Part shown: in pieces, positions 18,401 to 63,500 of the stretch
How positions within the stretch are numbered: position 1 is the first letter of the stretch
Layout of the letters: each line of letters opens with the position of its first letter
Origin: Mytilus galloprovincialis
Lineage: Eukaryota; Mollusca; Bivalvia; Mytilida; Mytilidae
DNA length: 64,000 nucleotides
Assembly: GCF_965363235.1 (NCBI RefSeq)
Contig: NC_134851.1
Span: 33,632,321-33,696,320, forward strand
Direction: 5' to 3'
Notes under the pieces: model-generated
What the model was told of the DNA's origin: nothing
Databases searched by the model: none
Seen by the model: only the letters and a program-made list of their open reading frames with translations
Made by a program: the position numbers and the translations under genes

Positions 18401-19766
18401 AAGAGTTCCCTCAGGTCTACCGCTTTTAACATTGCAAACTAGGTCAAGTGCTTGTCCATCTATTCCACGAATTATTTTTTTCCCGTTTGTTTCCAATGTA
18501 TTTAGAAATGACAGGTTGGTAGGAGGACCTTTAAAATTATGTTTTTACTGTTCAATAAACCAATATACATGTGTATATATAAATAAAGAATGGAAAACTG
18601 TTTCTCTATTCATTGCCAGGCAATTAGTTTTAAAATGTCTCAACATACTGTCATATATATTTTAATAAAAGTTTCTCGTGGCTTTATTATTTTTTTTAAA
18701 TTTTAATGTTTCTCTTCGTATCATCAAACGGAAATTCTATCTAATTAGTTATCAAAGATACCCGGATTATAATTTAGTACGCCATACACGCGTTTCGTCT
18801 ACCTACGACTCATCAGTGACGCTCATATCAAAATATTTATAAAGCAAACAAGATTGAGATATAATCATATTTGACTAATCCAATACTTCATTATCATAAT
18901 TGAAGCATACAATTTGTAGTTTATGAACCACTAAAGACTTTTACTTACTTTTTAAATAAAGTGTGAATTTATGTAAATATAGCACTCCTGATTTCCATAA
19001 CTCGCATGTGTAGTTTCCAGTATCTACATCTGAGATATTTCTTATAATCAAGATGCATATATTCTTACTATAATCTCCAATGATATTAATATTCAAGTCT
19101 TGAAGATTTTTGGTGAGTATCAGGCCTTGTGCGTAAAGTTCTGTTCCTTGATTCTTTCTCAGTCTTCTAATTGTCGATCTTTGAGGGCCGTACCATGACG
19201 TAACGGTTTGACGGGAGCAAGTGCAATTGAGAGTAACGGTTGCATCTACTTCAACAAATATCCTGGTGTGGTTTTTTACGTAATGTAATGTGTCTTGATA
19301 ATAATACAATTGAAATGATTATTTTATTTATAAATTTTCCAAGCATTTCACTTTTCTATTTGAAAATAAAAATATTTATCTAAAAGGTTTATGTATATAA
19401 CGTGTTTCAATCAATTAAAAACAGGCTGTAATTTTGTGAGCTAGAGAAGGGTCAGTTCCATATTTTCAAAATATTTTAATGATTTTGCTTACATTCAAAC
19501 GGTTAAATCGCAGCTAAAAAGCTTAAAAGAGATTCTGCCTAAATGATTGTCAAATCTACCCTTCCCCCCAAAGTCGTCTGTCGATTGTCAATCAAACAAA
19601 AGTTTATACAGATTCTTCACGTATCTAAAGGACATAGCAGTGGTAATATTTATGTTGTTTCGCACTACTATTCAAAATGTGTCTGCTTACTAAATGCTAG
19701 TATATTACCTGAGGAAAAACAATAAGGCAGTAATGTCACAAAAATCGTCAGCGTAATAACTAACAT
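8964..19766 (-). CDS. gene A: Ig/FN3 type I membrane receptor, complete coding sequence
   Basis: Coding exons on the minus strand, in order: 19766-19709, 19293-18949, 18528-18241, 14978-14718, 14094-13801, 12359-12039, 11415-11125, 9490-8964. Every junction is GT-AG and phase 1; the sum is 2385 nt, a clean 794-residue frame plus stop. Layout: signal peptide 1-19; V-like Ig about 20-134; Ig 135-230; Ig 231-317; Ig 318-415; Ig-like domain without its cysteines 416-522; FN3 523-619; membrane segment about 632-654; basic stop-transfer RLRRKRK; tail of about 135 residues. The tail has YDEI, INYNMV (fits the ITIM pattern), YQAV and YSSI. The arrangement is that of adhesion or immune receptors of the nephrin/CD22-like kind; automatic naming would vary, and I infer a cell-surface signalling or adhesion role only. 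It is divergent from gene C and tandem with gene B. I cannot exclude missed small exons or alternative splicing. Confidence 0.88.
9491..11124 (-). other. gene A intron 7
   Basis: AT-rich intron. The short overlapping frames at 9953-10258 on both strands are not supported by splice signals. A foldback at 10249-10342 is listed separately. Confidence 0.6.
10249..10342. repeat. short foldback (imperfect palindrome)
   Basis: Two inverted arms of about 35-40 bp around a 15-bp loop. TATACACCACGC and GTTAACATATTTAAACGA on the left pair with TCGTTTAAATATGTTAAT and GCGTGGTATATA on the right. It probably is a miniature TIR element inside gene A intron 7. Confidence 0.65.
11125..11415 (-). CDS. gene A exon 7: fibronectin type III domain
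   Basis: 291 nt, acceptor ATTATCTAG, donor G|GTAAGT, phase 1 to 1. The product has the FN3 pattern: LPQTPTNLIV (strand A), IIVSWMSEFNGGF (core Trp and Gly-Gly turn), FFIQYRADD (strand C Tyr), then STKQYFVRMFSRNKIGDS (the L-x-P-x-T-x-Y-like region and the N-x-x-G turn). It sits between the Ig domains and the membrane segment, as in nephrin-like receptors. Confidence 0.9.
12039..12359 (-). CDS. gene A exon 6: Ig-like domain lacking its disulphide
   Basis: 321 nt, acceptor CTTGTTCAG, donor G|GTAATC, phase 1 to 1. The fold pattern is kept: PPIFVTN start, ELNITVLLF where the B-strand Cys should be, and HFGNYTIEACNNEGC where the canonical Y-x-C is Y-x-I. Both intradomain cysteines are therefore replaced by hydrophobic residues, while two extra Cys (EAC, EGC) appear in the F-G region. 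Several N-x-T/S glycosylation sites are present. Confidence 0.85.
12360..13800 (-). other. gene A intron 5
   Basis: No exon or recognisable repeat. A plus-strand frame at 13342-13590 has no support. The stretch 13060-13200 has inverted words (CCTGTTCACACTATGACAC and GGTTCAAACTACGACAC), which hints at an old MITE, but the arms are too decayed to call. Confidence 0.45.
13801..14094 (-). CDS. gene A exon 5: Ig domain
   Basis: 294 nt, acceptor TGTTCATTAG, donor G|GTATAT, phase 1 to 1. Typical Ig residues: NLSCNAEGNP (Cys after the B strand with the G-x-P turn), FDKWYH (core Trp), and HENDGLYICRVSN (D-x-L-Y-x-C). It is not in the supplied long frames on this strand because it lacks an internal start codon. 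The codon frame and both splice sites are clean. Confidence 0.9.
14718..14978 (-). CDS. gene A exon 4: Ig (I-set/C2-like) domain
   Basis: 261 nt, acceptor ATGTTTTGCAG, donor T|GTAAGT, phase 1 to 1. KPLLVVDYLENQEVIEN start; SLEVCCQGHSNP (Cys, preceded by a second Cys), YIYWTGN (core Trp), RTNTGRYTCFASNSIG (G-x-Y-x-C-x-A-x-N-x-x-G). This is the most canonical I-set-like domain of the protein. Confidence 0.9.
16050..16290 (-). repeat. dispersed mussel repeat family R2, inverted copy
   Basis: Reverse complement of the first half of the 20391-20815 copy: GAGCAACCCGACGGGTGCC, ATGTGGAGCAG, CTTTCCGGAGCATCTG and GAGTTTGAATGTCCCTCT correspond to words in that copy. Confidence 0.7.
16955..17165 (+). 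repeat. dispersed mussel repeat family R4
   Basis: TAGTCGTTGTCGTTTGTTTATGTAAT, then TTTTCCCGTTTGAATTG, GCTCATTGTTGAAGGCC, and a CGGTGAGCTATAGTTG end. The same word order occurs at 26130-26310 (worn) and 61500-61745. Confidence 0.65.
18241..18528 (-). CDS. gene A exon 3: Ig domain
   Basis: 288 nt, acceptor ATTTTAAAG, donor T|GTAAGT, phase 1 to 1. Starts GPPTNLSFLNTLE; ALDLVCNVKSGRPEG carries the first Cys and the R-P turn; MQLFKCYAF carries the second Cys. The core Trp is replaced by Leu (LHLTKNG), and the usual D-x-G-x-Y motif is changed to RDHMQLFKC, so this domain is somewhat degenerate. DEVTLDI forms the last strand. Confidence 0.88.
18750..18855 (-). repeat. hammerhead-bearing dispersed repeat, copy 1
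   Basis: Diverged copy of the family seen at 29.05, 29.69 and 34.48 kb: TTATCAAAGATACCCGGATT, then AGTACGCC, the hammerhead, and GACGCTCATATCAAAATAT. It lies in gene A intron 2, with its ribozyme strand sense to gene A. Confidence 0.8.
18779..18822 (-). ncRNA. hammerhead ribozyme motif, copy 1
   Basis: Minus strand reads CTGATGA, stem II GTC...GAC (3 bp with a GTAGGTA-type loop), then GAAA, and a short stem III ACGC/GTGT. The candidate cleavage residue is A (NUA, allowed by the NUH rule). Stem I pairs AGCGTCA with TGGCG, one G-U included. The core is intact. Confidence 0.75.
18949..19293 (-). CDS. gene A exon 2: V-like Ig domain
   Basis: 345 nt, acceptor ATTATTATCAAG, donor A|GTAAGT, phase 1 to 1. 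ATVTLNCTCSRQTVTSWYGP (first Cys and core Trp), then a long C'-D region with NINIIGDYSKNICILIIRN, then SDVDTGNYTCELWKSG (D-x-G-x-Y-x-C) and a KFTLYLK end. At 115 codons it is longer than the other Ig exons, as expected for V-type domains. It is the membrane-distal domain, the usual site of ligand recognition. Confidence 0.9.
19709..19766 (-). CDS. gene A exon 1: signal peptide
   Basis: ATG at 19766; 58 nt giving 19 residues (MLVITLTIFVTLLPYCFSS) plus the first base of the next codon, then donor G|GTAATA. Hydrophobic core with small residues before the likely cleavage site. The phase-1 end matches exon 2 exactly, which is why I chose this start. It is too short to be an obvious open frame on its own. 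Confidence 0.85.
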
Positions 19767-23795: not shown

Positions 23796-24669
23796 CGCAA
23801 AATTTTTATAAACTTTATAAAAGGTGTATCTTTTCCTGCAGAGAGTCGATCATATGCATTCTAGCATTGTCCATTACAAATGTAAAAACATAACGATCGT
23901 CTAAGATCAACCAATTACTGATAAAAACATGAAGTTGTAGCTTTGACTGTGAGATATTTTTTACATGTATTTCAGATAAAAAAAAATGATTTGTTTTCAT
24001 GAATGGCAGATGAAGCGTTCTGTATACTGATATGTATAGTTTTTTATGTAGCTTCAGACATTATTACAAAAACTGACGGTATGTGAATATAGCTAGTTGG
24101 ACATTCTTGTGGAAAAAAAAATTAAATAAAAAATTTATAATAAGATAGTTTAAAGATTATGTTAACCATTTACATCATAAAAACACGTACCTAATTGTAT
24201 AGCTATGATATTCATCTATACACCACGTATTAGATTTGAGCGAGAGAAATTTGTGTATTATTGAATAATTATTACACTAGAGTTTTCGCTATCACAAACT
24301 AGTCAAAACATTTACAAAATTTTATCATCGGTATAAGGAAATAATTCGTAAATATAACTCAACATGCAGACATCTTATACGTTCAGGTATTTCATTTAAT
24401 CTTTAATCTTTTGTGGTAATATTCTTTACAAAGCATACAAATGGCAGTATTCACCTCAAAAGCTTACAAAACCTTTAAACAGACTTATTAAGAAGGTATA
24501 TAGTTACGATACTGTTGTCATGTCATTAAAAATTGCATATTTTGGCTTTAATATTGCTTCACTTATAGGGTCTTTGCATCGGAACTAAACACATTTATTT
24601 AAGAAAAAAACAGTTCTTGGCATGACACGGGTTATGTTCTTCTCATTTATGTTATGATAGTATGATACT

Positions 24670-25245
24670 AAACCCCTAACGGGAGGGATTATGCCTGATA
24701 TTCATATGATGAAGACATAATCTTTCAATCAGTTTTAGTGAGGTCTGGAGCTGGCATGTCAGTTAACTGCTAGTAGTCTGTTGTTAGTTATGTATCATTG
24801 TCATTTTATTTATTTTCTTTTGTTCTACTTTTGACATCGGACTCAGACTTCACTAGAACGGAATGTTAATGTGCGTATTAATATGTGTTTACTTTTCTAA
24901 ATTGGCTAGAGGTATAGGGGAGGGTTGAGATCTCATAAACATGTTTAACCCCTGGCGCAATTTTGCGCCTGTCCCAAGTCAGGAGCCTATGACCTTTGTT
25001 AGTCTTGTATGATTTTCAATTTAGTTTCTTGTGTATAATTCGGAGTTAAGTGCGACGTCCATTATCTTTGTACTAGTATACATATTTTTAGGGGCCAGCT
25101 GAAGGACACATACGGGTACGGGAATGCTCGCTACATTGAAGACCAATTGGTGGTCTTCGGCTGTTGTCTGCTCTATGGTCGGGTTGTTGTCGCTTTGACA
25201 CGTTCCCCATTTCCTTTCTCAATTTTATTGTATAGGTTAACAAAT
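24670..25245 (+). repeat. dispersed mussel repeat family R3, longest copy
   Basis: CCCCTAACGGGAGGGATTAT, CATGTCAGTTAACTGCTAG, TTTTGACATCGGACTCAGAC, CATGTTTAACCCCTGGCGC, GCGCCTGTCCCAAGTCAGGA, TAGGGGCCAGCTGAAGGAC, CATTGAAGACCAATTGGTGG, CTCAATTTTATT. A repeat commonly met in mussel genomic and cDNA sequence. Partial copies are at 23166 (+) and 30698 (-). Confidence 0.75.
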
Positions 25246-26710: not shown

Positions 26711-29700
26711 GTAAGTTAGTATGTCAATTAAAAGAAAATATATTTTAGAATGTATAGTGCGTATTGATTTCATATTAAATACTAGAGAACAAATACGATG
26801 TTATCATCTCCAAGTTTTACTCCTGTTAAGGTTGCATACATTATCTCAAACGTTTCAAGTAAACAATAAATCTGCATTATGTATATATAATTTATGTAAC
26901 GCTTCCAAACGTGTTCATTTCCCCTAAATTATTCCGATAAATCTAATCGTGACTATGACACGGTTTAACATTTATTAAAGGATAGTCGCTTTTTGACAGT
27001 TCAGTGGTGATGTCACATGGTTTATTTGACACGTGTATGGGAATGGACACTTTTGGGGTTGTTACATTAATGAATATTATAAAGGCATAATAGCTTATTG
27101 TCTTAAATTTTTCGATGGTTATCAGTACAATGAGTGCAATACCCATGTAATATGCCGCATGTCATTCAACCGGTAGACATTAGAAGCGATTTGAATACAC
27201 TGTTTTACCCGTTTTACAACCGGTGCGTTTCAAAATTTGAAAATGACTTTAATTTGTTTTAATTATTCCTAAGTGAAAATAACTGTTTGGAAATTTCGTG
27301 CTTCTATGCTTTTCTTAATTTACATTGATTCACAACCCTAAATGCCAAACATTTGAAATCCCAGAGTATATTATAGTATATATAAATGATAAGCTATCTA
27401 GAAAACAGCACAAGATGCCAGTTTACTGGAAGTGTTAATCTTAAAGTGTTATATATTTTTAGTTCATAACATATATATAAATAAAGAAAAGTATCCTATC
27501 AATACTATTTAAATCGAAACAAAAGCTACTCACCTAGTATAGTTTTAATATTTCTTTATCAAATGTAAAGTTAAGCAAAATACAAAATGTAAGATTTGTT
27601 TCCGGTCATTTGTGAAAATGCATCGTAATGCTTGTACATTCAAACACACGTCTTTTTTTCACAGACCATCCTTTGGAAGACCTTCCAATTAATTCAACTT
27701 CATACGAAAGATATATGGAAGCAAATATAACACTAGATAAAGTATATCCTACTCCAGAATGTAACTTCACGGATTGGGTGAGTTCTTTAAAATATCTGCA
27801 CAGCATGTTTTCAAGTGTTTAAGATAATACCAATCAACTGACTTAACATAGTTATTGAATAAATACTGTTAGCATCTTTTCCTTAATACATCACACTATA
27901 CCTTAAACATAACAAAACAATGCTAATCCCTTTTTTTGTGTAAATCATGATATACGAATTAATTTCATGCTGTAACTAAAGATTCAATCAGTATTGTTTG
28001 CTGATCTTCTAATGACAAATATTGCAGGCATATACAAGGCAAGACAAAATGAGAATGAAAAGTTTAGGGTCCTTGATATTGAATAGACACAACTTCAGCA
28101 CCAATATGTATGCAAGGCGTTTACTGCGGGTCGGTATTATCCAAACAGTGACCATATTTTTATTACCCAGTCACCTTGAGGTTAATTAGGTTATTATTTT
28201 GATCAAAGTCAATAATAATTCGGGGAAAATTCGTTTACATGACCCACAAGTAAGTGTGTGCTATATCACCCTAAAAAGGGAAAGGGTTGTCCTTTGGAAT
28301 TTGATGTCAGACTGAGTTCTGAGAACAACTTGATAAATGGGTACACATTTGTTTTACATTTGTTCAGAATTAGTTTCTTTTTTTCTGTTTAAATTACAGG
28401 GAAGAGATTTGAAACAAAACATCACCGTCACCAATAAACGCAACGGGCTCTTCTACACATCAAACATTTACCTTCTTTACGAGAACATTGATAGATGCAA
28501 TAGACATGATAGACCTGTTGCAGTCATTTGTTCAGTTGGAGAAACATCTTTTACAGTCGTTAACAATACTGTGAAATGCCCAGACGGTATTACTTTCTTA
28601 CTTTCCCCTAGTTTTTGAGCATCATATGTAAATATATTGGTAAATTATAAATATATTAAAAATAAGATTTAAGAAACGAGTATGTTCTAATGTGTTTCTT
28701 TTAATTCGGCTACATTTAAAGTTAAAACTGTTTCCGAACGGATTTGTTTTTTATTTGATTAATTTTTCCTTTGATAAATTTTAATAATCATTTATTTTGG
28801 TCTCTTATAACAGACCTTCTTCAGGGAAAGTGTTTAGATGCTATATATACGGAAACTTTGGATATTTGATTTAATATTACATGTTCTCCTTGAGAAACAA
28901 AACCATGTACATTACGGAAACAGAGTGTATATACTGATCGAACGGATTACTACTTACACCAATAGCGTAGTTTACAAGCGGACTTGTGTCTGTAATATTT
29001 TGATTCACAGAAACGCAGATACAGCTCATGTCAATTTGTAAATTGTACAACACTAAATAAACTCATCATAGATACCAGGACTAAATATTATATATACGCC
29101 AGACGCGCGTTTCGTCTACAACTGACTCATCCGTGACGCTCGAATCCAAAAAAGTGTAAAAAAGCCAAATAAAGTTCAAAGTTGAAGAGCATTGCGATCC
29201 AAAATTCATAAAAGTGTTGCCAAATACAGCTAAGGTAATCTATGCCTAAGGTAGAACATGTAGAAAAGCCGTAGTATTTCAAAAAATTCAGAATTTTGTA
29301 AACAGTTAATTTATAAATATAACAGTATCAATGATAAACGTTACATTTAGGATTTTGGCATGATAATCTTATATTGCTATATGTTCATTTTTCCAACAAC
29401 GAGAATAATTCCTATGTGGTTGTCAATTGTCAAGAAGTTCTCACATTTCAACCTTAAGTTTTGTATTAATAAAACAATCTGAACTCACCTAAGATTTTGT
29501 GATATTAACTTTTGACTTAATCAAATGCCTTAAAGTATTAGTATGACGAATTCTAATAAATTCTTAGGCTAAATGTGTCAATATGTTACGAATGAACGTC
29601 GATGAGCCTTTGGTGTGATTTTATGTCCCTGTTATTGTAGTTGAATACAAATGCAATGCATACCCTGAAGTTGAGTGTACTCCAGAGATCATAGATACCA

Positions 29701-32464
29701 GGACTAAATTTAATATACGCCAGACGCGCGTTTCGTCTACAAAAGACTCATCAGTGACGCTCGAATCAAAAAAAGTTCAAAAGGCCAAATAAAGTTGAAG
29801 AGCATCGAGGACCAATATTCCTAAAAGTTTGGCCAACTACAGCTAAGGTAATCTATGCCTTAGGTAGAAAAGCCTTAGTATTTCAAAAAAATACAAAAAT
29901 TTGTAAACAGTAAATTTATAAATATAACAATATCAATGACAATTCATGTCAGCACAAAAAGTGCTGACTACTGGGCTTGTGGTACCCTCGGGGAAATTAA
30001 TCTCCACCAGCATAGACCCAGTGGTTGTAAATAAATTCATCATAGATACCAGGACTACTGAGACATTGTCTTCTTGTTTTGAGTGCTTGTCACCAGGAAA
30101 ATACGAATAATAGCAGGACAACCAAATTGTCAACACTCGTAATATACTTTATACAGGGTGAATATCACATCTTACAAATACCAACTTCTTCATACATTGT
30201 AGGTTACGCATCACTAGATAATATAAATCGTGTCCCATAGGCCAGGATTTCAGCAAATATTAGTGTCATTTCTACCACGCCATCTGTAGACTTACACAAG
30301 ATTGTCCATTCCAATTTCCACCTTACATGCAAAAAAATTTTACGATCAAATTTGAAAAGCTTATGCACTGGGCAGCTTTTTTTTTTATGTTTCGTACTCC
30401 AAAATTTTGCAAAAAAGTTCTTTTTTAAATCATAAATGAATTAAAATATTTCATATTCTCACTAACATTATATTATGATTAACTGAAAAGAGACACCATT
30501 TTGCAGACAAACCTGAATCTTCCAGTAAGAAATACCTTCCATTTTGGGCAGTCGTGATAGCATCTGGATGTGCAGGATTAGTTATACTTGCTTGCATTTC
30601 TATTGTATATTTGACGCTTTGTAAGTATATTGTTAGTTCATTAAAAAAAATAACGAGTTTGATTCTGAAAATGTTGGTTTTTCACTAATTGCATGTAAAA
30701 TTGAGAATGGAAATGGGGAATGTGTCAAATAGACAACAACCCGACCATATAAAAAAACAATAATAACAGCAGAAGGTCACCAACAGGTCTTCAATGTAGC
30801 GAGAAATTCCCGCACCTGGAGGCGTCCTTCAGCTAGCCCCTAAACAAATATATACTAGTTCAGTGATAATGAACGCCATACTACTGATGTAGTCTTTTTT
30901 TGTAGAGGCTATGGTTAATGTTTATCAATTATACAAATTATGGAAAAAGTCGTTGAACTAAGCAAGTTATATTTTTCTAACTTTCTTCCTAACATACGTC
31001 GGTTGTTTTGTATTTGTTATACTTTATGGTTTGTTTTCTCATATTAAGAATAATATATGCTGCTCACTATGCAAAGGAATTGTCTCCTCTAATGTTCTAC
31101 CTTAAGGATCGTGTATAACAAACTATTATTATGCGAATACTATATTGGAAGTTAGACGTCTAGCCGACTCAGAAAAAAGGAAAAGGAAATGTTGTTTTTT
31201 TGTCGTTTAGCTTTGCGTGAAATTGTACCGAAGAGCATGATCTTCACTATTTTTTTTTTGTCTCTGTGAGGATTCGAACTCGACCCATGGCTTAACATCT
31301 GTGTATAAAGTCAACACTATAACAAACTCACCTACCTTATACGATTATGGCTGGCTAAAGGTCTACTACTCATTATTTGTTTTGTCTGTGCGTTCATACC
31401 AATCCAACATTTTACGTTTAAACCAATTAATGATTTGATAATCATAATAAATCAATTTAAACTATTTTTTTCCACATATCTAGGGAACTATAGGCGTACT
31501 CGTAATGCTTCATCTTCAAGTCAAGAACAGGATAATGCTGGTAATATATATTTAACTACAATAATCGCAGATTGTGAAAACACAATCCACAACATTCGTG
31601 TAACAGAATATTTTTTAGACAAAGCGGTGTGCTTTAGAATAAATGTTACAAAGAGAATTTTTGTATAGTTAGATATTTACAGCCGACTGTACGATATAGG
31701 GTTTTCTCGTTGTTTAAGACCACATGATTGCCTATAATTGATAACATTCACTTCGTGTGAAATTTGGTGCAAAGTAGTCTCATTAAAAATCATATAAAAT
31801 ATCCTTATTTTCCGTTGAGATGTTATTATAAAAAATCATATTGAAATAACCAAATCGTAGTAGATTGATGTTTTTGTCAGAATCTTATATAGAATAATAA
31901 ATGTACATTATCCTAATACATTTTTGAGACCTCTTTTTGTGGGCTGAACTGGTTTACAGAATCGGCCCTTTTCTCCTTTCCTATAGTAAGTTCCTCGGAT
32001 TTTGTTTCTATCTTTATAAACACAACTGATGAATATTTTTATATGCTTTTGGCACAAAGTTAATAATGGTTTTACTGATAATGGAGCACATGTGATCATT
32101 CCCGATTTTTTGTATTATTCTAATGTTGCTCAGAAAGACTGAAGCTTGCTGTGAAGTGTTTTGTAGATTGTTTTTGTTTTGTTTTGTAGTTTTTCTCTCT
32201 TTTTTGTGATGGCATTATTCTATGAATTTTCTCCGACTTTTAACTTTGGTTATGCCTTTGGTATAATCTACTCTACATCCTTTGTACATAATGCATGATT
32301 GCAGCAAACACTATCATTAAATTGCCTGATTAGAATAAAACTGATGACTGTGTAATAATCAAATACACTAGTAGTTTTTCATTGCAGATGCTATGAGTGA
32401 TTTTGCAAACGACTCACTTTTGATACAACATTGTTCATCTGTAATACAAGATGAAAGTATCTGA
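26390..32464 (+). CDS. gene C: small Ig-type membrane receptor, 5' end missing
   Basis: Coding exons: 26390-26710, 27665-27777, 28400-28586, 30507-30620, 31484-31540, 32388-32464. Phases run 1-1, 1-0, 0-1, 1-1, 1-1, 1-stop and agree at every junction; 869 nt give 288 residues without the signal peptide. Layout: one Ig domain; a second, less canonical Ig-like domain built from two exons; a short stalk; one membrane segment; a cytoplasmic tail of about 45 residues with a single tyrosine next to the membrane (WNYRRT) and no ITIM or ITAM. The first domain plus the KVYPTPECNF region matches a receptor type I associate with bivalves and other molluscs, where it is expanded; ligand and role are unknown to me. 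Gene C is head-to-head with gene A. A poly(A)-type AATAAA lies at 32773-32778. The first exon is not placed. Confidence 0.82.
26711..27664 (+). other. gene C intron
   Basis: AT-rich; no exon or repeat recognised. A minus-strand frame at 26943-27146 has no splice support. Confidence 0.5.
27665..27777 (+). CDS. gene C exon: first half of second Ig-like domain
   Basis: 113 nt, acceptor TTTTTTTCACAG, donor TGG|GTGAGT, phase 1 to 0. The junction codon T|AC gives Tyr. The sequence HPLEDLPINSTSYERYMEAN leads to ITLDKVYPTPECNFTDW, a B-strand with Cys. The phase-0 exit splits the domain, unlike the single-exon Ig domains of gene A. Confidence 0.82.
27778..28399 (+). other. gene C intron
   Basis: 622 bp with a good pyrimidine tract before the next acceptor. 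No other feature seen. Confidence 0.6.
28400..28586 (+). CDS. gene C exon: second half of second Ig-like domain
   Basis: 187 nt, acceptor TTTAAATTACAG, donor G|GTATTA, phase 0 to 1. GRDLKQNITVTNKRNGLFY, then YLLYENIDRC, DRPVAVICSVGE, then TVVNNTVKCP. Four-cysteine pattern with the preceding exon; the VICSV Cys is the likely partner of PEC in the upstream exon. Confidence 0.82.
29054..29385 (-). repeat. hammerhead-bearing dispersed repeat, copy 2
   Basis: Begins AATAAACTCATCATAGATACC and runs, collinear with copy 3, through AAGTTGAAGAGCATTG, AGCTAAGGTAATCTATGCC, AGCCGTAGTATTTCAAAAA and ATAACAGTATCAATGA. It sits in a gene C intron with the ribozyme antisense to gene C. Confidence 0.8.
29096..29140 (-). 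ncRNA. hammerhead ribozyme motif, copy 2, core mutated
   Basis: Same layout as copy 3, but the minus-strand core reads CGGATGA instead of CTGATGA, a change at plus-strand base 29132. Stem II GTC...GAC, GAAA, stem III ACGC/GCGT, cleavage residue C and stem I are kept. The U-to-G core change should abolish or strongly reduce activity. Confidence 0.75.
29688..30035 (-). repeat. hammerhead-bearing dispersed repeat, copy 3, near-complete monomer
   Basis: About 345 bp, starting CATAGATACCAGGACTAAAT. The next ATTCATCATAGATACCAGGACT begins at 30029, as if a second unit started and then stopped. Body words match copy 2. The spacing suggests a monomer of about 345 bp inserted as more than one unit length. 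Confidence 0.75.
29717..29761 (-). ncRNA. hammerhead ribozyme motif, copy 3, intact
   Basis: Minus strand: CTGATGA (29754-29748), stem II GTCT/AGAC with loop TTTGT, GAAA, stem III ACGC/GCGT, cleavage residue C (29723). Stem I pairs GCGTCA with TGGCGT through two G-U pairs. All conserved core bases are present. Predicted cleavage is between 29723 and 29722. Confidence 0.82.
30507..30620 (+). CDS. gene C exon: stalk and membrane segment
   Basis: 114 nt, acceptor ACCATTTTGCAG, donor T|GTAAGT, phase 1 to 1. KPESSSKKYLPFWAVVIASG, then a hydrophobic run (CAGLVILACISIVYLTL). Too short to stand out as a frame; the phase and the neighbouring exons support it. Confidence 0.85.
30698..30875 (-). repeat. 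dispersed repeat family R3, inverted 3' end
   Basis: AAAATTGAGAATGGAAATGG, GTGTCAAATAGACAACAACC, GGTCTTCAATGTAGCGAGAA, CCTTCAGCTAGCCCCTAAAC: the reverse complement of the end of the 24670-25245 copy. Confidence 0.75.
31262..31345 (-). mobile_element. tRNA-like SINE head
   Basis: On the minus strand a B-box GAGTTCGAATCCTC (31281-31268) follows an A-box-like TAGGTGAGTTTGTTATAG at a tRNA-like distance. No CCA end or full cloverleaf is evident, so it is more likely a SINE or tRNA pseudogene than a working tRNA. Confidence 0.5.
31484..31540 (+). CDS. gene C exon: start of cytoplasmic tail
   Basis: 57 nt, acceptor TTCCACATATCTAG, donor G|GTAATA, phase 1 to 1. The junction gives Trp, then NYRRTRNASSSSQEQDNA: basic stop-transfer residues and a serine run. 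The Tyr here is the only one in the tail. Confidence 0.78.
31541..32387 (+). other. gene C intron
   Basis: AT-rich, no repeat or exon recognised; minus-strand frame 31908-32099 unsupported. Confidence 0.5.
32388..32464 (+). CDS. gene C terminal coding exon
   Basis: Acceptor GTAGTTTTTCATTGCAG, phase 1. Gives DAMSDFANDSLLIQHCSSVIQDESI and a TGA stop (32462-32464). Acidic tail end without tyrosine. The long minus-strand frame across this stretch is its shadow. Confidence 0.72.
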
Positions 32465-34481: not shown

Positions 34482-34665
34482 AAGTTATTTATCAAAGGTA
34501 CTAGGATTATAACTTAGTACGCCAAACGCGCGTTTCGTCTACATAAGACTCATCAGTGACGCTAATGTCAAAATATTTATAAAGCCAAAAAAGTACAAAG
34601 TTGAAGAGCATTGAGGATTCACAATTCCAAAAAGTTATGCCAAATACGGCTAAGGGAAAATTTTA
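34482..34665 (-). repeat. hammerhead-bearing dispersed repeat, copy 4
   Basis: TTATCAAAGGTACTAGGATT, AGTACGCCAAACGCGCG, the hammerhead, then ATATTTATAAAGCC, AAGTTGAAGAGCATTGAGG, TATGCCAAATACGGCTAAGG. Closer to copy 1 on the left and to copy 3 on the right. Confidence 0.8.
34519..34563 (-). ncRNA. hammerhead ribozyme motif, copy 4, intact
   Basis: Minus strand: CTGATGA, stem II GTCT/AGAC with loop TATGT, GAAA, stem III ACGC/GCGT, cleavage residue T (NUU), stem I AGCGTCA with TGGCG. All core bases present. Confidence 0.82.
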
Positions 34666-45539: not shown

Positions 45540-48500
45540 CTTGAAATTTAACCATAAACTTGCATTTAGATTTTGTCACATGTTTTAACATAAAATTGTA
45601 TACTTATGTATAAAGAAAAAACATAAAATATGCTCATCCTCAGTAATTTCTTATTCACGAACACAATTAGGCATTATCAAAATAACGAAACATGAAAAAC
45701 ATGTAGTAATAAACCAATGTTCAATGTAATACATATTCCCTAGTGGAATTTTTGCAACAATGATTAACATGATTAAGATGACAAATATTGAATTATAACT
45801 CTGACATATAACAGGATACATAAAATAAACAAGAGGCTCCCAAGAGCCTGAATCGCTCACCTTAATTCTTTTGGTTAAATCTCTCATCAATGATTATTTT
45901 GGCTTTTCAATTTATTTAAATGTTTTTTGGATCGTCCTATTTTCTTCAAAAGCCAAAAAAAATAATCATTTTCTCCTATGTTCTATTTTAGCCATAGGAG
46001 CTATGTTTCTTGACATACAAGGAAATAAAATATAAAATTTATACTAGATACTCTGAAACTCATTTAGCCTAAGTTTGGCTGAAATTGATACAGCAGTTTC
46101 AAAGGAGAAGATTTTTTAAAGTAAGTCAACATTATGAACAAATTGTGAAAAAAGTCTTTAAAGGGCAATAACTCCTTAAGGGGTCAATTGACAATTTTGG
46201 TCAAATTGACTTAATTGAAGATCTTACTTTGCTGAACATTACTGCTGTTTACAGTTTATTTCTATCTATAATTATATTCAAGATAATAAACAAAAACAGC
46301 AAAATTTCCTTAAAATTATCAATTCAGGGGCAGCAACCCAACAACAGGTTGTTTGATTCATCTGAAAATTTCAGGGCAGATAAAGTTGACCTGATAAACA
46401 AATTTACCCAACGTCAGATTTGCTCTAAATGCTTTGGTTTTTGAGTTATAAGCCAAAAACTGCATTTGACCCCTATGTTCTATTTTTAGCAATGGCGACC
46501 ATGTTTGTTGATAGATCATAACTTCGGATACAATTTACAAACTAGATACCCTAAGGAACATTCAGTTAAAGTTTGGAAGTATTTGGCCCAGTAGTTTCAG
46601 AGGAGAAGATTTTTGTAAAAGATTACTAAGATTTACGAAAAATGGTTAAAAATTGACTATAAAGGGCAATAACTCCTAAAGGGGTCAACTGACCATTTCC
46701 GTCATGTTGACTTATTTGTAAATCTTACTTTGCTGAACATTATTCCTGTTTACAGTTTATCTCTATCTATAATAATATTCAAGATAATAACCAAAAACAG
46801 CAAAATTTCCTTAAAATTACCAATTCAGGGGCAGCAACCCAACAACGGGTTGTCTGATTCATCTGAAAATTTCAGGGCAGATAGATCTTGACCTGATAAA
46901 CAATATTACCCCTGTCAGATTTGCTCTAAATGCTTTGGTTTTTGAGTTATAAGCCAAAAACTGCATTTGACCCCTATGTTCTATTTTTAGCAATGGCGAC
47001 CATGTTTGTTGATAGATCAAAACTTCGGATACAATTTATAAATTAGATACCCTGAGGAACATTCAGTTAAAGTTTGAAAGTATTTGGCCCAGTAGTTTCA
47101 GAGAAGATTCTTGAAATAGTTTACGACGACAGACGACGACGGACGACGACGGACGCCAAGTGATGGCATAAGCTCACTTGTCCCTTCGGGACAGGTGAGC
47201 TAAAAAGGAAAAAACAATAAACAAAATATTTTGTACTAAAGGTTTCCTTTAGAGAAATTAATGTAAATGTATATATACAATCTTGCTTAGGAGTAATATC
47301 ACCAGCTTTTTTTCCCTAACTTATATAAACATTTTTTTTGTAAAACTTTGTAAAATTTAAATTAAAAAAAATTGTGCAGAATTTATCTTTGTTTGAAATA
47401 AAAAAAAAATTGGCATGAGTATAGTTTTGTCCTGTCCATTACTGCAGACAAACTTTCACATAACATTTCACTGCATATATCATAAGAAAATACCATCACT
47501 GGAGGTTAAGCAATCACATTTTTTCCCCTGTTTACAACATTTAGTAACCATGTTACCACAAGTGTCCAAATTTTTTTCAATAGAAATCCCATAAAAAAAG
47601 GATCGTGCTTTAAAATATCCAAGATAAATGTTGTGACTTGACAATTTCATGGGGATTTTGTTTTTTGACCCACATCCGCATAAAATGGGATGTGACATTT
47701 CATGATTTAATAAATAAATTGTTGACAAATTTACAAGTGTTGTCTGTTGGCATAAAAATAATAAGAAAGTAAGAATGCCACCTGATGGACAGCAACATTG
47801 CTTATTTATTCAAATATCTTAACCATGAACTAGAGGGCAGAGCCTCAAAATAATCTGAAACATTTGAATAAACTTATATTGAAACAAGAGGCTCTCAAGA
47901 GCCTGAATCGCTCACCTTAATTCTTTTGGTTAAATCCCTCATCAATGATTATTTTGGCTTTTCAATTTATTTAAATGTTTTTGGATCAACCTATTTTCTT
48001 CAAAAGCAAAAAAAAAATCATTTTCTCCTATGTTCTATTTTAGCCATAGAAGCTATGTTTCTTGACATACAAGGAAATAAAATATAAAAGTTATACTAGA
48101 TACTATGAAACTCATTTAGCCTAAGTTTGGCTGAAATTGATACAGCAGTTTCAAAGGAGAAGATTTTTTAAAGTAAGTCAACATGATGAACAAATTGTGA
48201 AAAAAGTCTTTAAAGGGCAATAACTCCTTAAGGGGTCAATTGACAACTTTGGTCAGATAGACTTATTTGTAGATCTTACTTTGCTGAACATTATTGCTCA
48301 CTTTACAGTTTATCTCTATCTATAATAATATTCAAGATAATAACTAAAAACAGCAAAATTTCCTTAAGATTATCAATTCAGGGGCAGTAACCCAACAACA
48401 GGTTGTCTGATTCATCTGAAAATTTCAGGGCAGATAAATCTTGACCTGATAAACAATGTTACCCCATGTCAGATTTGCTCTAAATGCTTTGGTTTTTGAG

Positions 48501-51500
48501 TTATAAGCCAAAAACTGCATTTGACCCCTATGTTCTATTTTTAGCAATGGCGACCATGTTTGTTGATAGATCAAAACTTCGGATACAATTTATAAACTAG
48601 ATACCCTAAGGAACATTCAGTTAAAGTTTGGAAGTATTTGGCCCAGTAGTTTCAGAGGAGAAGATTTTTGTAAAAGATTACTAAGATTTACGAAAAATGG
48701 TTAAAAATTGACTATAAAGGGCAATAACTCCTAAAGGGGTCAACTGACCATTTCGGTCATGTTGACTTATTTGTAAATCTTACTTTGCTGAACATTATTG
48801 CTATTTACAGTTTATCTCTATCTATAATAATATTCAAGATAATATCCAAAAACAGCAAAATTTCCTTAAAATTATCAATTCAGGGGCAGCAACCCAACAA
48901 CAGGTTGTCTGATTCATCTGAAAATTTCAGGGCAGATAGATCTTGACCTGATTAACAATATAACCCCCATGTCAGATTTGCTCTAAATGCTTTGGTTTTT
49001 GAGTTATAAGCCAAAAACTGCATTTGACCCCTATGTTCTATTTTTAGTAATGGCGACCATGTTTGTTGATAGATCAAAACTTCGGATACAATTTATAAAC
49101 TAGATACCCGAAGGAACATTCAGCTAAAGTTTGGAAGTATTTGGCCCAGTAGTTTCAGAGGAGAAGATTTTTGTAAAAGATTACTAAGATTTACGAAAAA
49201 TGGTTAAAAATTGACTATAAAGGGCAATAACTCCTAAAGGGGTCAACTGACCATTTCGGTCATGTTGACTTATTTGTAAATCTTACTTTGCTGAACATTA
49301 TTGCTATTTACAGTTTATCTCTATCTATAATAATATTCAAGATAATATCAAAAAACAGCAAAATTTCCATAAAATTATCAATTCAGGGGCAGCAACCCAA
49401 CAACAGGTTGTCTGATTCATCTGAAAATTTCAGGGCAGATAGATCTTGACCTGATTAACAATATAACCCCCATGTCAGATTTGCTCTAAATGCTTTGGTT
49501 TTTGAGTTATAAGCCAAAAACTGCATTTGACCCCTATGTTCTATTTTTAGTAATGGCGACCATGTTTGTTGATAGATCAAAACTTCAAATACAATTTATA
49601 AACTAGATACCCTAAGGAACATTCAGTTAAAGTTTGGAAGTATTTGGCCCAGTAGTTTCAGAGGAGAAGATTTTTGTAAAAGATAACTAAGATTTACGAA
49701 AAATGGTTAAAAATTGACTATAAAGGGCAATAACTCCTAAAGGGGTCAACTGACCATTTCGGTCATGTTGACTTATTTGTAAATCTTACTTTGCTGAACA
49801 TTATTACTGTTTACAGTTTATCTCTATCTATAATAATATTCAAGATAATAACCAAAAACAGCAAAATTTCCTTAAAATTACCAATTCAGGGGCAGCAACC
49901 CAACAACGGGTTGTCTGATTCATCTGAAAATTTCAGGGCAGATAGATCTTGACCTGATAAACAATTTTACCTCTGTCAGATTTGCTCTAAATGCTTTGGT
50001 TTTTGAGTTATAAGCCAAAAACTGCATTTGACCCCTATGTTCTATTTTTAGTAATGGCAACCATGTTTGTTGATAGATCAAAACTTCGGATACAATTTAT
50101 AAACTAGATACCCGAAGGAACATTCAGTTGAAGTTTGGAAGTATTTGGCCCAGTAGTTTCAGAGGAGAAGATTTTTGTAAAAGATTACTAAGATTTACGA
50201 AAAATGGTTAAAAATTGACTATAAAGGGCAATAACTCCTAAAGGGGTCAACTGACCATTTCGGTCATGTTGACTTATTTGTAAATCTTACTTTGCTGAAC
50301 ATTATTGCTATTTACAGTTTATCTCTATCTATAATAATATTCAAGATAATATCAAAAAACAGCAAAATTTCCTTAAAATTATCAATTCAGGGGCAGCAAC
50401 CCAACAACAGGTTGTCTGATTCATCTGAAAATTTCAGGGCAGATAGATCTTGACCTGATTAACATTATAACCCCCATGTCAGATTTGCTCTAAATGCTTT
50501 GGTTTTTGAGTTATAAGCCAAAAACTGCATTTGACCCCTATGTTCTATTTTTAGTAATGGCGACCATGTTTGTTGATAGATCAAAACTTCGGATACAATT
50601 TATAAACTAGATACCCGAAGGAACATTCAGCTAAAGTTTGGAAGTATTTGGCCCAGTAGTTTCAGAGGAGAAGATTTTTGTAAAAGATTACTAAGATTTA
50701 CGAAAAATGGTTAAAAATTGACTATAAAGGGCAATAACTCCTAAAGGGGTCAACTGACCATTTCGGTCATGTTGACTTATTTGTAAATCTTACTTTGCTG
50801 AACATTATTGCTATTTACAGTTTATCTCTATCTATAATAATATTCAAGATAATATCAAAAAACAGCAAAATTTCCATAAAATTATCAATTCAGGGGCAGC
50901 AACCCAACAACAGGTTGTCTGATTCATCTGAAAATTTCAGGGCAGATAGATCTTGACCTGATTAACAATATAACCCCCATGTCAGATTTGCTCTAAATGC
51001 TTTGGTTTTTGAGTTATAAGCCAAAAACTGCATTTGACCCCTATGTTCTATTTTTAGTAATGGCGACCATGTTTGTTGATAGATCAAAACTTCAGATACA
51101 ATTTATAAACTAGATACCCTAAGAACATTCAGTTAAAGTTTGGAAGTATTTGGCCCAGTAGTTTCAGAGGAGAAGATTCTTGTAAAAGATAACTAAGATT
51201 TACGAAAAATGGTTAAAAATTGACTATAAAGGGCAATAACTCCTAAAGGGGTCAACTGACCATTTCGGTCATGTTGACTTATTTGTAAATCTTACTTTGC
51301 TGAACATTATTGCTGTTTACAGTTTATCTCTATCTATAATAATATTCAAGATAATAACCAAAAACAGCAAAATTTCCTTAAAATTACCAATTCAGGGGCA
51401 GCAACCCAACAACGGGTTGTCTGATTCATCTGAAAATTTCAGGGCAGATAGATCTTGACCTGATAAACAATTTTATCCCTGTCAGATTTGCCCTAAATGC

Positions 51501-54500
51501 TTTGGTTTTTGAGTTATAAGCCAAAAACTGCATTTGACCCCTATGTTCTATTTTTAGCAATGGCGACCATGTTTGTTGATAGATCAAAACTTTGGATACA
51601 ATTTATAAACTAGATACCCGAAGGAACATTCAGTTGAAGTTTGGAAGTATTTGGCCCAGTAGTTTCAGAGGAGAAGATTTTTGTAAAAGATTACTAAGAT
51701 TTACGAAAAATGGTTAAAAATTGACTATAAAGGGCAATAACTCCTAAAGGGGTCAACTGACCATTTCGGTCATGTTGACTTATTTGTAAATCTTACTTTG
51801 CTGAACATTATTGCTATTTACAGTTTATCTCTATCTATAATAATATTCAAGATAATATCAAAAAACAGCAAAATTTCCTTAAAATTATCAATTCAGGGGC
51901 AGCAACCCAACAACAGGTTGTCTGATTCATCTGAAAATTTCTGGGCAGATAGATCTTGACCTGATTAACAATATAACCCCATGTCAGATTTGCTCTAAAT
52001 GCTTTGGTTTTTGAGTTATAAGCCAAAAACTGCATTTGACCCCTATGTTCTATTTTTAGCAATGGCGACCATGTTTGTTGATAGATCAAAACTTCGGATA
52101 CAATTTATAAACTAGATACCCTAAGGAACATTCAGTTAAAGTTTGGAAGTATTTGGCCCAGTAGTTTCAGAGGAGAAGATTTTTGTAAAAGATAACTAAG
52201 ATTTACGAAAAATGGTTAAAAATTGACTATAAAGGGCAATAACTCCTAAAGGGGTCAACTGACCATTTCGGTCATGTTGACTTATTTGTAAATCTTACTT
52301 TGCTGAACATTATTGCTGTTTACAGTTTATCTCTATCTATAATAATATTCAAGATAATAACCAAAAACAGCAAAATTTCCTTAAAATTACCAATTCAGGG
52401 GCAGCAACCCAACAACGGGTTGTCTGATTCATCTGAAAATTTCAGGGCAGATAGATCTTGACCTGATAAACAATTTTACCCCTGTCAGATTTGCTCTAAA
52501 TGCTTTGGTTTTTGAGTTATAAGCCAAAAACTGCATTTGACCCCTATGTTCTATTTTTAGCAATGGCGACCATGTTTGTTGATAAATCAAAACCTCGGAT
52601 ACAATTTATAAACTAGATACCCTAAGGAACATTCAGTTGAAGTTTGGAAGTATTTGGCCCAGTAGTTTCAGAGGAGAAGATTCTTGAAATAGTTTACGAC
52701 GACAGACGACGACGACAGACGACAGACGCAGACGCCAAGTGATGGCATAAGCTCACTTGGCCCTTCGGGCCAGGTGAGCTAAAAAAGAAATACAAGATTA
52801 ACAAAGACCAGAGGCTCCTGTTTTAGGACAAGCACAAAAATGATGCAGGCTTAACATGATTTGTGAGATCTCAAGTCTCCCCTTTACCTTTAGCCAATTG
52901 AGAATAAACAAACACACAGTAAAACTCAGAATAAAAGTAGTCTGACTCCTATGTCATTGCAGGTCAGAATATCTAACAAAAAAGCACAAGTTCTGACAAT
53001 TTGATTATGTATTTGTTTCTAAACAGTCAGCCTCACTCACTCTCTTTTGTAGACTTCTAAAGGATAGCTGTTCTTTATCAATCAGACCGTCTTCTTCTAG
53101 CTAGAAAGACAATAGAAAACCATAATTTAGAAAGAAATGAGAAGTGTGCTGTCTTCAATATATTGAAAAAAAATATCTATTCAACTTCAACTAATAAATT
53201 TTTAGTGAAAAGATTTTATGATGTAAGGTAGTAAATGCGATAAGGTACAAGACAATATGCAAAATAATTACACTGATGGTTCAATTTTGACTTCAACATT
53301 TTAAACTTTCAAAATAATTTAATATCATTGGGATATTGGTTTGACAAGTATTTTTCTTTATCCCTTAGTATTATACATTTGAATTGTTGTGACGTCATGT
53401 AACATACATACTGTCAAGGTACTGTTATTTGTGTGGTACCAATTTTTGTGGATGGCTTTATCCATTAATTTAAGTGTCCATAAAATATATTAACTGATAA
53501 TTTAACTTTAGATGTAATGCGTCTTCTGATTTTGTTATCAGCCCATAGACATAGTTTAGTAATGTGACCGTGATGTCATCAAAGTTTTCTACGGTTTAAA
53601 ATGGAATTTAAAATCAAATCATTAGAAATGACTGTAATTTTTTTCTGTCTATTCAAATTAACATAAAAAATGTGGTGAACACTGTTAAATAACCCGCTAT
53701 GCGCGTTATTCAGTGTGTACCAAATTTTTTATGTTATTTCTTCATCGACAGAAAAAATATTACAGTCATTCGTTTATTGTCCAACTCAAGACATAGAAAG
53801 ATCCTCAAGTAGATTTAACTTCATGGATACCAGCATATAATGAAGAGAATATATTGAATTTCAACAAATGCACTATAAACTTTATATATACAACTGCACA
53901 TTCTGCAGACAGGACAGACTTTTATATATTATACATCACACACAAGTAAAGAAATAGCAAATAATATTGTGTATAAAAGAAATAATGGAGATTTCTAAAT
54001 GTATGTAATTTTTCAGTTTGCATGATAAGTCAATGTTTCTAGATATATACTTTAAATAACTATTTTTAATCTTAAAAAAAAAATAACTGTATGACCATAA
54101 TCTTCTGGTTCTCATACAATTTTTTTAATTAATTTGTGTTGGTGCAAATGTTATATATAACCAGGATATAAGCAGCAAAACAATTACAGGTGCAGTAAAA
54201 TTATTACTGTTAATGGTATTGATGATACAGCATCAAATGTATTAATATAAATCATAATTACATGAATTACATCTATATCTACTGCAGATATATTGCTCTT
54301 TGACCATGATGACTGGATTCTTCTACTTGTAAGCTTGCTACTTCTTGCCTCACCTACAATGCACCATTTGTTTTTTACAAAAGAATGTGATTTCAATTGA
54401 AAAAAACCTTTAAGCATTCTTTTTGTGACCACACTTAACCGGTCTTATAATGAAATTTAGTATTTGTGCATACCAACACAAGCTGAGCAGATTCATAAAG

Positions 54501-60500: not shown

Positions 60501-63500
60501 GGCCTTAGCTAACATGAACATGGCTCTTGTGCATCTTCCACACTTGTCACTCTCTAGGATTACTGTAAATTCAGATATAATTATTGCTTGCATTTATTTT
60601 TCTTATTTTGTCATGCAAGACTAAAATTTGATTTTTACTTTTGCCATAATCATTATCAAGAAGAATCATCTCTTATTCATAGAAAAAAAAATCAAAATGT
60701 GTTTTTAAATTATTGTGGTTATAACCATTGCATTTTTTGCAATAATAAAAATATCACAATAATTTCTGAATTTACCACATAGACTAGAACATAATTCATG
60801 ACCATGAAGACTAAGTCACTCTTAAATTCTCTTTTTTGATGATCTATTTTTTCTAATAACAGTTTCTCTTTAAACACATAATAGTAAATTCTTGCTAAAT
60901 ATTGCTTTTACGGAAAAATACATCCTATTTGACTGACAATTTATTATTTCAGATATGTTAACCTATTTTTACAGAAGATGACCAATTTTTCTTGTGTTAT
61001 ATATGTTGCCACAGACATTACAAACCATGTGACTTGTGTTTTGACTGACAAAGGAATGTATTTCGCATAAATACATGGTTTTATTCTGTGAAACAACATA
61101 TCTTATCACTTCTTCAATGAATACACATGAATTTTTTTAAAGAACATAAAAAAATAATATGAAAATGTTTTGATGTGAGAAATATATATATTTTCGAAGG
61201 GTTAAATATTTCGCAGTGGTGTCTTGCCATGGCTTTGTTTGGACTTGTTTGTTTGCTTTTTTGGCCTTGAATGTTTGACCCCAATATTTTATTAACTGTG
61301 CATTTCCATTCAGATATCACCTATCAAATTTATTCGTTCATAGTGTATTAATTTACGTTTTTGATTGAGTTAAGCCTGCCAATTGATATTTTATAATATG
61401 TTTTCTATGTTGTGATGTCTATTGGTTCAGAAAAAGGGAGGTTTGGATCCATTAAAACTTTTAATCCCGCTGCAAATGTTTGCACCTGTCCTAAGTCAGG
61501 AATCTGATGTACAGTAGTTGTCGTTTGTTTATGTAATTTATATGTCTATCTCGTTTCTCGGTTTTTTATATAGATTAGACAGTTGGTTTTCCTGTGTGAA
61601 TGGTTTTACACTAGTAATTTTGGGGCCCTTTAAAGCTTGTTGTTCAGTGTGAGCCACAGCTCCGTGTTGACCTATAATGGTTGTCTTTTTTAAAATTGTT
61701 ATTTGGATGGAGAGTTGTCTCATTGGCACTCACACCACATCTTCCTATATCTATATAAAGATAAAAACAAGAATGATTCCATAGTACACAGATGCCTCAC
61801 TGGCAACATCATTTATGTTCAGTGGACTGTAATATTGGGGTGAAAACTCTAATTTGGCATTAAAATTACAAAGATCATATCAAAGAGAACAATAAAAAAA
61901 TTTGTGTACTAAGTTTCAAGTTGATTGGACTTCAGCATAAAAAACTACTTGACCAAAATCTTTTAACCTGAAGCGGGACAAAACGGTGGACACAGGGACG
62001 AACAAATTAATGGACCCACAGACCAAAATACAAAATATCCCTAATTGAATTGGTACGGGATGGCCAATGGGGTGTTGTCCAATTTGGAAATGAACTGACA
62101 TTTTATGAGCTACTTCCATCATTTCTACAATATTACCACTAGAAACTTCTATGAGGACCACTACACAGACGTGCAAGAATAGCAGATAACCACATCCTTA
62201 ATAACTTTATTGACAAACTTTCTCTGTTTTAACTATACTAGATTCTTATTTTACTCTCACTTTCACTTTCTATTTATATCTATAAGGTCGTCATAACAAC
62301 CTCTACTGCTCGGCGAACCACACAACCGCAAAATTTGTACTTCACTTTTTGATTTCATGTATAATATTGTCCTGAAGACGCCACGCTTGTTGGCGAAACA
62401 TGTCGACCACAATAAATTAATCACCATGCGGTAATTGATGGGTGTTGTTGTCTTTAATGTCGTTTATTTGCTTTTATAGTGAAAGACAACTGTGAATACC
62501 GCGTGGTATCCACCCGCTATTACCCAACCGCACGATAACCACTTCAGGTGTTGGTTCACCATTTTCCAAGTTGAAGTTTACTTTTTTACTGTGAACACCC
62601 TGCATTCGAGAGGATCCACCTTTGCCAAACTAGCGTTGTACCTAACAACCACACAGCATGAACGAAATACCGGACCATTTAAAAAGTTCTCGATCCGTTC
62701 CCGAAATTACCAGATAAGGAGAAAAAATAAGGAGAGATTTGGAAACAAGCAACCACAGAAACATACAAAGAAGAAGCAGTTCATCACTGAAGATTTACAT
62801 ACCATACATAAGTACACAAAGTCAAAGTAATTCGAAATACCAGGCATTTTACTTAGAGAAAAAAGGAAGGAACCAGAACCAAGATGAACCACATAAACCA
62901 CAAACAATATTTATAAAGAAAAGCTTCATCCACGGACATTTTATTAGCAAAGTTGATATTTATGAACACATCTACTATTCGTCTACCATGATTTACAATT
63001 CCCAAAATTGCGCCGATCATACACTTCACCTTTTACTAACTCAATGGAAGCAGTTCCTCCCTCGGAGCGAAGCCAGTTGAATTGGTATGGGATGGCCAAT
63101 GGGGTGTTGTCCAATTTGGAAATGAACTGACATTTTATGAGCTACTTCCATCATTTCTACAATATTACCACTAGAAACTTCTATGAGGACCACTACACAG
63201 ACGTGCAAGAATAGCAGATAACCACATCCTTAATAACTTTATTGACAAACTTTCTCTGTTTTAACTATACTAGATTCTTATTTTACTTTCACTTTCTATT
63301 TATATCTATAATGTCGTCATAACAACCTCTATTGTTCGGCAAACCACACAACTGCAAAATTTGTACTTCACTTTTTGATTTCATGTATAATATTGTCCTG
63401 AAGACGCCACGCTTGTTGGCGAAACATGTCGACCACAATAAATTAATCACCATGCGGTAATTGATGGGTGTTGTTGTCTTTAATGTCGTTTATTATATCC

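Follow-up and report, generated by a model that had tools for sequence, protein, structure and literature searches.

Features of the window and architecture of the element

The window analysed here is a stretch of 64,000 nt from Mytilus galloprovincialis (contig NC_134851.1; C14:33632321-33696320). On its minus strand, exon-like frames at 2767-3267, 11078-11467, and 18944-19318 gave immunoglobulin V-set and fibronectin III matches and, judged by these, appear to belong to an immunoglobulin-superfamily gene or genes. Self-comparison revealed a direct repeat array at 45827-52805 (period about 500 bp, units about 85-95% alike), and a SECIS_1 match of 29 bits, under the gathering cut-off of 35, was recorded at 24644-24708 on the plus strand.

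The element described below (Table 1; 37% GC) is bounded by two direct repeats with 97.2% identity across 424 aligned columns. The left and right copies differ by 6 substitutions at 418 compared sites and by one gap of a 6-nt repeat unit, and five of the six substitutions cluster inside 42 nt (P 0.002). A preliminary description had placed repeats of 425 and 418 bp around 607 bp, coordinates that proved right by self-comparison, and the matching border it had noticed on both sides is a real, exact 10-bp target duplication, ATATCCCTAA, which adjoins the element exactly and is present just twice in the window (chance match of two random window 10-mers, P = 1.6e-5). The distance from one predicted cut to the next, that is, the unit, is 1026 nt; unit numbering starts at 62045 (position 1), which puts the predicted cut after unit 360. 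The left repeat begins at the first position of an upstream unit. What looks like a 425-bp LTR is therefore the stretch by which 1.41 units overlap, a pseudo-LTR as defined in the curation guide PMC8969392 (as far as its available text goes). The window copy is a one-armed insertion from site A (one of the two 3′ end sites described below) covering 1.41 units.

Table 1. Parts of the element, in window coordinates.
Feature	Position	Strand	Basis
Left target-site duplication ATATCCCTAA	62035..62044	.	exact sequence match
Left pseudo-LTR copy, unit 1-425, copied part of an upstream unit	62045..62469	+	repeat alignment, unit mapping
Hammerhead-type motif 1	62365..62414	+	predicted cut after 62404; descriptor, cross-subfamily covariation
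Remaining unit, 607 nt, non-coding, found in other copies	62470..63076	+	genome search, unit mapping
Zone matching 3′ end site B (CTGA+178 to +207), end in other copies, unused here	62549..62578	+	coordinates by arithmetic
Start-codon-region relic of coding PLE; closes the shared stretch	62658..62680	+	MNEIPDHL here, MDENTDHF in L062
Right pseudo-LTR copy; final base is 3′ end site A (CTGA+97)	63077..63494	+	repeat alignment, unit mapping
Hammerhead-type motif 2, same sequence as motif 1	63391..63440	+	predicted cut after 63430; descriptor
Right target-site duplication ATATCCCTAA	63495..63504	.	exact sequence match

The hammerhead-type motif

Each repeat contains CTGAAGA-C-GCCA(N7)TGGC-GAAACATGTC, starting at 62372 and 63398, where CUGANGA...GAAAC with a palindromic stem III had initially been noted. 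In motif 1, stem I would pair 62365-62371 with 62405-62407 and 62411-62414; the core CTGAAGA at 62372 is followed by an extra C (62379), stem II (GCCA/TGGC), and the palindromic stem III ACATGT. A descriptor for a type I hammerhead core with stems I-III, composed after the motif had been seen, matched both motifs and two other window sites, which belong to a second hammerhead family, and nothing in 300 dinucleotide shuffles. The 32-nt core pattern had 34 exact matches in the host genome, including the window's two, and its reversed control had none. The Rfam hammerhead models left the motif unreported even at E<=10. Its departure from the consensus is one extra unpaired C between core A9 and stem II, a position at which the RNA of the lizard Penelope-like element (PLE), in our reading of the available text of PMC11167929, has a U. 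A hammerhead-like site in an IMG/VR contig (L002:7610-7660), again as we read it, also has one extra nucleotide before stem II. Pattern scans of public collections returned 2, 0, and 0 stretches from viral_contigs and 1 from genome_contigs, which were read and taken as unrelated.

The minimum-energy fold predicted for the isolated motif is not a hammerhead (hammerhead fold −3.2 versus best −10.1 kcal/mol), the dimer behaves likewise (−13.0 versus −25.1 kcal/mol), and the predicted fold of the 1026-nt circle is weaker than that of 40 out of 40 shuffles. When 16 motifs (15 distinct) were aligned, 83.9% of the cells could pair, compared with 80.1% after shuffling, and the covariation score was 0.122 compared with 0.056 (0/500 shuffles in both cases). 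Two-sided pair changes numbered 2, which is not above the shuffles (274/500); stem II pair 4 is A-U, U-A, or G-C depending on the motif. Such covariation supports a hammerhead but does not prove it, as related sequences can exceed shuffles of this kind.

Copies in the host genome and their ends

The genome was searched over 1.385 Gb, which yielded at least 48 matches for the repeat (40 of 225 candidates scored) and at least 51 for the 607-bp spacer (40 of 196 candidates scored). Around strong matches, 20 regions were fetched and the unit was mapped on them; these loci were picked by score, not at random. A genome search with the 425-bp repeat had been suggested in the preliminary description, which regarded its reading as lost if no other copies with the same ends existed or if the repeats were merely a local duplication. 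Further copies with the same ends are present, and neither of the two adverse outcomes occurred.

According to BLAST edges, the copies end 3′ either at unit 411-439 (site A; 422-425 in most close copies) or at unit 508-539 (site B). Site A is 64 nt past the predicted cut, and site B lies about 100 nt beyond A. The 5′ ends are variable, ranging from unit 365 to 961 in most one-armed copies. Variable 5′ ends together with two 3′ end sites identify the repeats as pseudo-LTRs of the Penelope type, not LTRs. L021 contains tandem units of 1013 nt, and head-to-head inverted copies were found in seven of the 20 loci; tandems and head-to-head pairs sit inside single duplications of 9-16 bp. Target duplications of at least 10 bp were observed at 10 of 22 boundary pairs (L019 being doubtful), compared with 0 of 400 random pairs; of the remaining pairs, two showed 8-9 bp, and the other 10 showed no more than 7 bp or none at all. 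L015, when read as one insertion, has a duplication of 13 bp. For one-armed copies, the automatic duplication search returned low-complexity or internal matches at several loci (among them the window, L014, L018, L019, L021, L025, L026, L029, L030, and L040). Its inverted-pair rows were used, except for L016, and the other duplications were taken from separate boundary comparisons.

Four unrelated loci share a 5′ boundary at unit 1-4 (the window and L026 at 1, L065 and L066 at 4). Four starts within 4 nt among 16 one-armed copies have a chance of 0.0003, a value biased by the fact that two of the four had been fetched for their start. This boundary may represent a fixed 5′ end, or the start, of the RNA. 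L065 and L066 end before or inside the hammerhead motif and have no duplication. Small composites of inverted unit pieces with near-identical internal coordinates were also seen (C12:346177-346792, C12:464359-464969, C2:35524736-35525357, and C9:15448470-15449100); these are perhaps a further derivative that moves as such.

The window repeats, with their 6 substitutions and one gap, differ more than the repeats in five other multi-copy insertions compared (0-5 substitutions). Both carry changes in common that copies L012-L022 lack, and several differences occur on one side only, which means that the copy is older or was built from unlike template units. The window copy is not the youngest; the recent activity that had been read from its near-identical repeats suits other copies better.

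Ends of inverted insertions

When arm ends were measured from the outermost CTGA to the duplication (A, 87-98; B, 178-207), 12 of the 14 inverted insertions examined had one arm ending at A and the opposite arm at B. This was so by measurement in L012, L015, L022, L023, L041, L042, L043, L044, L046, and L061, and by hand reading in L017 and L031. The exceptions are L016, which is A/A by its 9-bp duplication (an automatic 15-bp match falls outside A and B), and L040 (12-bp duplication), one arm of which ends at B and the other within the motif. If A and B were chosen evenly and at random, 12 or more of 14 would have a P of about 0.006 by arithmetic (0.0017 for a variant of 12/13). One-armed copies end at or near A, except L020 (B), L065, and L066. 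In the accessible parts of the respective papers, rotifer PLEs are described as carrying a tail on one of two inverted pseudo-LTRs, with duplications of 8-10 bp (PMC3846280), and the protein of a lizard PLE as extending both target strands and starting at two adjacent internal sites (PMC11167929).

Coding capacity and coding relatives

No reverse transcriptase (RT) or GIY-YIG gene was found in the unit, whose longest stop-to-stop frame has 120 aa and no Pfam match; the element is hence non-autonomous, and the lack of a reverse transcriptase remarked upon earlier was borne out. This internal open frame, which reaches 135-202 aa in some other copies, was considered as a gene and rejected: across 11 copy rows its variable columns fall on the three codon positions as 4, 12, and 6, that is, they are not rich in third positions, and length changes among the copies are not multiples of three. 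It is taken as a relic of a PLE ORF start plus non-coding sequence. A start codon inside the hammerhead was also considered, as L024, L029, L040, and L041 have an ATG at the position of the extra nucleotide, and as the ORF of the lizard PAc RNA starts with an AUG inside the hammerhead (PMC11167929, in the text available). The idea was dropped because the frames stop after 3-35 codons and the apparent start of L062 (see below) lies ∼290 nt further on.

With 150 of 1001 candidates scored, GIY-YIG domains were detected at no fewer than 147 genomic places, and several of these lie in frames of 780-911 aa; L052 and L054 have RVT_1 and GIY-YIG together. The locus that links such coding PLEs to the window element is L062 (C6, minus strand), in which two exact cores of the window type lie 3857 nt apart. 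Its domains (RVT_1, 8.2e-12; GIY-YIG, 1.6e-6; a sub-threshold C2H2 finger) are spread over three frames, which shows that the copy is broken. After the GIY-YIG part comes a frame (reverse complement 3129-3902) whose C2H2-finger-like matches fall below the cut-off. L062 and the window element have unit positions of about 154-636 in common, with an identical 32-nt core and, by BLAST, 88.6% identity over 367 columns (unit 271-636). The shared stretch stops at the apparent start codon of L062. Its repeats are 98% alike over 1030 columns, it is flanked by an 11-bp duplication, its 3′ end is A (CTGA+94, by arithmetic), and it shares both end sites with the window family. L062 is thus an element of the kind the preliminary description had proposed to look for, a Penelope-like reverse transcriptase gene with the same ends. 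For the remaining ∼400 nt of the short unit, L062 offered no clear match; what similarity there was in the pseudo-LTR part was weak and short.

L046 is a second coding PLE, 5′-truncated and with a GIY-YIG match of 1.6e-8. Its motifs follow the same order, the tail motifs GGTATCCAC and GTTGGTTCAC among them, and a stretch of 239 nt is 90% alike in L046 and a non-coding subfamily. No hammerhead-type motif was found by pattern in the coding-PLE loci L047, L048, and L050-L056, and these stretches may miss their pseudo-LTRs; L049 had one weak motif match without the stem. Two further pattern searches of the genome returned 72 and 97 cores (reversed controls, 0 and 0), among them further subfamilies in which the palindrome ACATGT is kept and the stem II sequences differ.

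Identity of the element

Given that L062 shares the core, the end sites, and the start-codon region, the window element is almost certainly a non-autonomous PLE, and it is one of several ∼1-kb hammerhead subfamilies in the host genome. From the alignments, the unit appears to consist of the cis region of a coding PLE plus about 400 nt without clear similarity to L062; in the cis region that seems to have been kept are the minimal hammerhead, a portion of the pseudo-LTR, the start-codon region, and the two zones where reverse transcription starts. The shared ends suggest mobilisation by a PLE enzyme. The retrozyme-like element of the preliminary description therefore stands as a non-autonomous retroelement with two hammerhead-type motifs, but it is PLE-derived and neither an LTR retrozyme nor a canonical short animal retrozyme.

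One other classification would be an animal non-LTR retrozyme of the canonical kind, with a full type I hammerhead and normally short tandem units, that simply happens to be long. It could account for a non-coding, tandem element with type I topology, long duplications, a low GC content (37%), and a presumed PLE enzyme, all of which fit the account in the available text of PMC7229834. It is nevertheless very unlikely, because the unit has 1026 nt instead of 150-450, the minimal motif goes unseen by Rfam, strong self-pairing is missing from the predicted fold (40/40 shuffles are at least as stable), and the cis region is common to a coding PLE. Two ribozyme-bearing repeats around a non-coding centre would also be expected of a plant-type LTR retrozyme or another small LTR element. 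The ends, however, are TTG...ATT, the sequence after the left repeat starts with TGC, no purine tract precedes the right repeat (the longest purine run in the 40 nt before it is 5), the duplication has 10 bp, and the 5′ ends vary among copies, which makes the probability of such an element practically negligible. Host DNA can be captured between two pseudo-LTRs, as described for a rotifer in the available part of PMC3846280, but that the structure arose in this way, or as a local tandem duplication or satellite, is extremely improbable: the 607-bp spacer also lies beside the repeat elsewhere (complete at four further places, spread over three loci), and the target duplication is exact.

Circular or linear template

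Sites A and B are 3′ of the predicted cut; copies that reach past the cut consequently came from RNA that was continuous there, either uncut or resealed. In the resealed case, a genomic copy would be transcribed through, the hammerheads, perhaps paired via the ACAUGU palindrome, would cut the RNA to ∼1-kb monomers, and a ligase of the host could seal the monomer ends into a circle. PLE reverse transcriptase/GIY-YIG endonuclease, presumably supplied in trans, would nick AT-rich DNA and start inside the RNA at A or B, where the copies are seen to end. Anything from part of a turn to several turns round the circle would yield the 5′ truncations, pseudo-LTRs, and tandems found in the genome, and extension of both target strands, from A and from B, would yield the observed arms joined head to head within one duplication.

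One insertion, L061, contains 4.6 units in two arms (2.2 + 2.4) that are identical over 2346 nt, with a 15-bp duplication and ends at A and B; its identity to three other insertions (L057/L058, which are one place, L059, and L060) is 94-99%. In the subfamily from the second of the two further pattern searches (97 cores), units within a locus are evenly spaced, opposite arms included: over 20 spacings in 11 loci, with the pair C2:106908811/106911012 (2201 nt) left out, the summed range was 1, compared with 35.4 when shuffled (0/100,000). L012 and L022 each have identical arms, and the arms of L016 and of L021 are almost identical. In the window's subfamily, however, arm identity is weak evidence, as different insertions (L015, L016, and L017) can be identical too. 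The simplest template for such insertions would be a circle that the hammerhead and a host ligase produce and that both target strands are used to read. That the element is a non-autonomous PLE and was copied from a circular RNA template is, both taken jointly, moderately probable. The broader proposition, namely, that this PLE group normally uses RNA circles made by the hammerhead as its template, each target strand priming a separate lap round one and the same circle, from A or from B, before the two cDNAs are joined head to head, is put forward tentatively, as an idea that may well hold but that we would not presume.

The same non-autonomous PLE could instead have been copied from a linear, uncut transcript that runs from near unit 1 through a tandem source, with the hammerhead uninvolved in insertion; this is a serious possibility, albeit one we do not expect to prove correct. 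A uniform tandem source array or linear concatemer, perhaps starting at unit 1, could give equally constant spacing. Such a transcript would suit the 5′ end at unit 1-4 that four loci, including the window, have in common, and also the unequal window repeats if two unlike source units had been read; a single young circle read twice would not leave 6 substitutions and a gap, except where the insertion itself is old. In vitro, cleavage-dead RNA was inserted equally well: hammerhead mutants were without effect on insertion, and no reads ended at the cut, in the portion of PMC11167929 available. Against a circle also speak the energetically disfavoured hammerhead fold and the predicted circle being less stably folded than all 40 shuffles, unlike that of the second hammerhead family of the window and unlike the retrozyme circles described. 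What a linear template does not readily provide is the several turns of L061, whose two arms are 100% identical and have units of equal length, or the equal spacing in both arms at other loci, and it leaves the conserved hammerhead core with compensating stem II changes unexplained. If the two-ended model holds, the PLE hammerhead, whose in vivo role is called a mystery in the accessible text of PMC7761336, would have its function in circularising the template, and pseudo-LTRs, tails, tandems, and inverted copies would arise by one process.

Relation to known elements

Within the available portions of the sources, PLEs (PMC3846280, PMC11167929, and PMC8969392) have in common with the present family the pseudo-LTRs, partial tandems, and 5′ truncation, the head-to-head inverted copies with a tail on one arm, the minimal hammerhead, two internal RT start sites 3′ of the hammerhead, and duplications of about 8-16 bp. 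They differ in that the element here lacks RT and endonuclease, has a ∼1-kb unit and multi-turn insertions with identical arms, and has a tail of about 100 nt compared with 30-40 in the known PLEs. Plant LTR retrozymes, as covered by the accessible text of PMC7229834 and PMC7761336, likewise have two hammerheads in flanking repeats and a non-coding centre; in contrast to them, the element has no LTR ends, primer site, purine tract, or type III hammerhead, and its duplication has 10 bp instead of 4. No description of ∼1-kb non-coding hammerhead PLEs was recognised in the literature searched, and a prior description is quite possible. A single genome here contains coding PLEs along with several non-coding relatives of ∼1 kb that share their ribozyme and end sites, and also long, perfect two-armed insertions; the RNAs are short and tractable, and the circular and the linear template lead to clear predictions.

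Animal non-LTR retrozymes, known from a mussel among others (PMC7229834, to the extent of the text available), are similar in their non-coding tandem units with type I hammerheads, in that PLEs are suspected as helpers, and in that a circular RNA intermediate has been proposed for both. By that account, they have 150-450 nt, fuller hammerheads, and strongly paired circles, whereas the units here are 1.0-1.1 kb long, minimal in their hammerhead, and weakly paired. The window also contains a second hammerhead family (29717-29760, 34519-34562, 18779-18822, and 29096-29139; minus strand), with four Rfam Hammerhead_1 matches of 25.8-32.5 bits, below the gathering cut-off of 34. For one repeat unit of this second family, 351 nt long, the circle is predicted to fold more stably than shuffles (z −2.5), and the unit resembles the short animal retrozymes described in the available part of PMC7229834.
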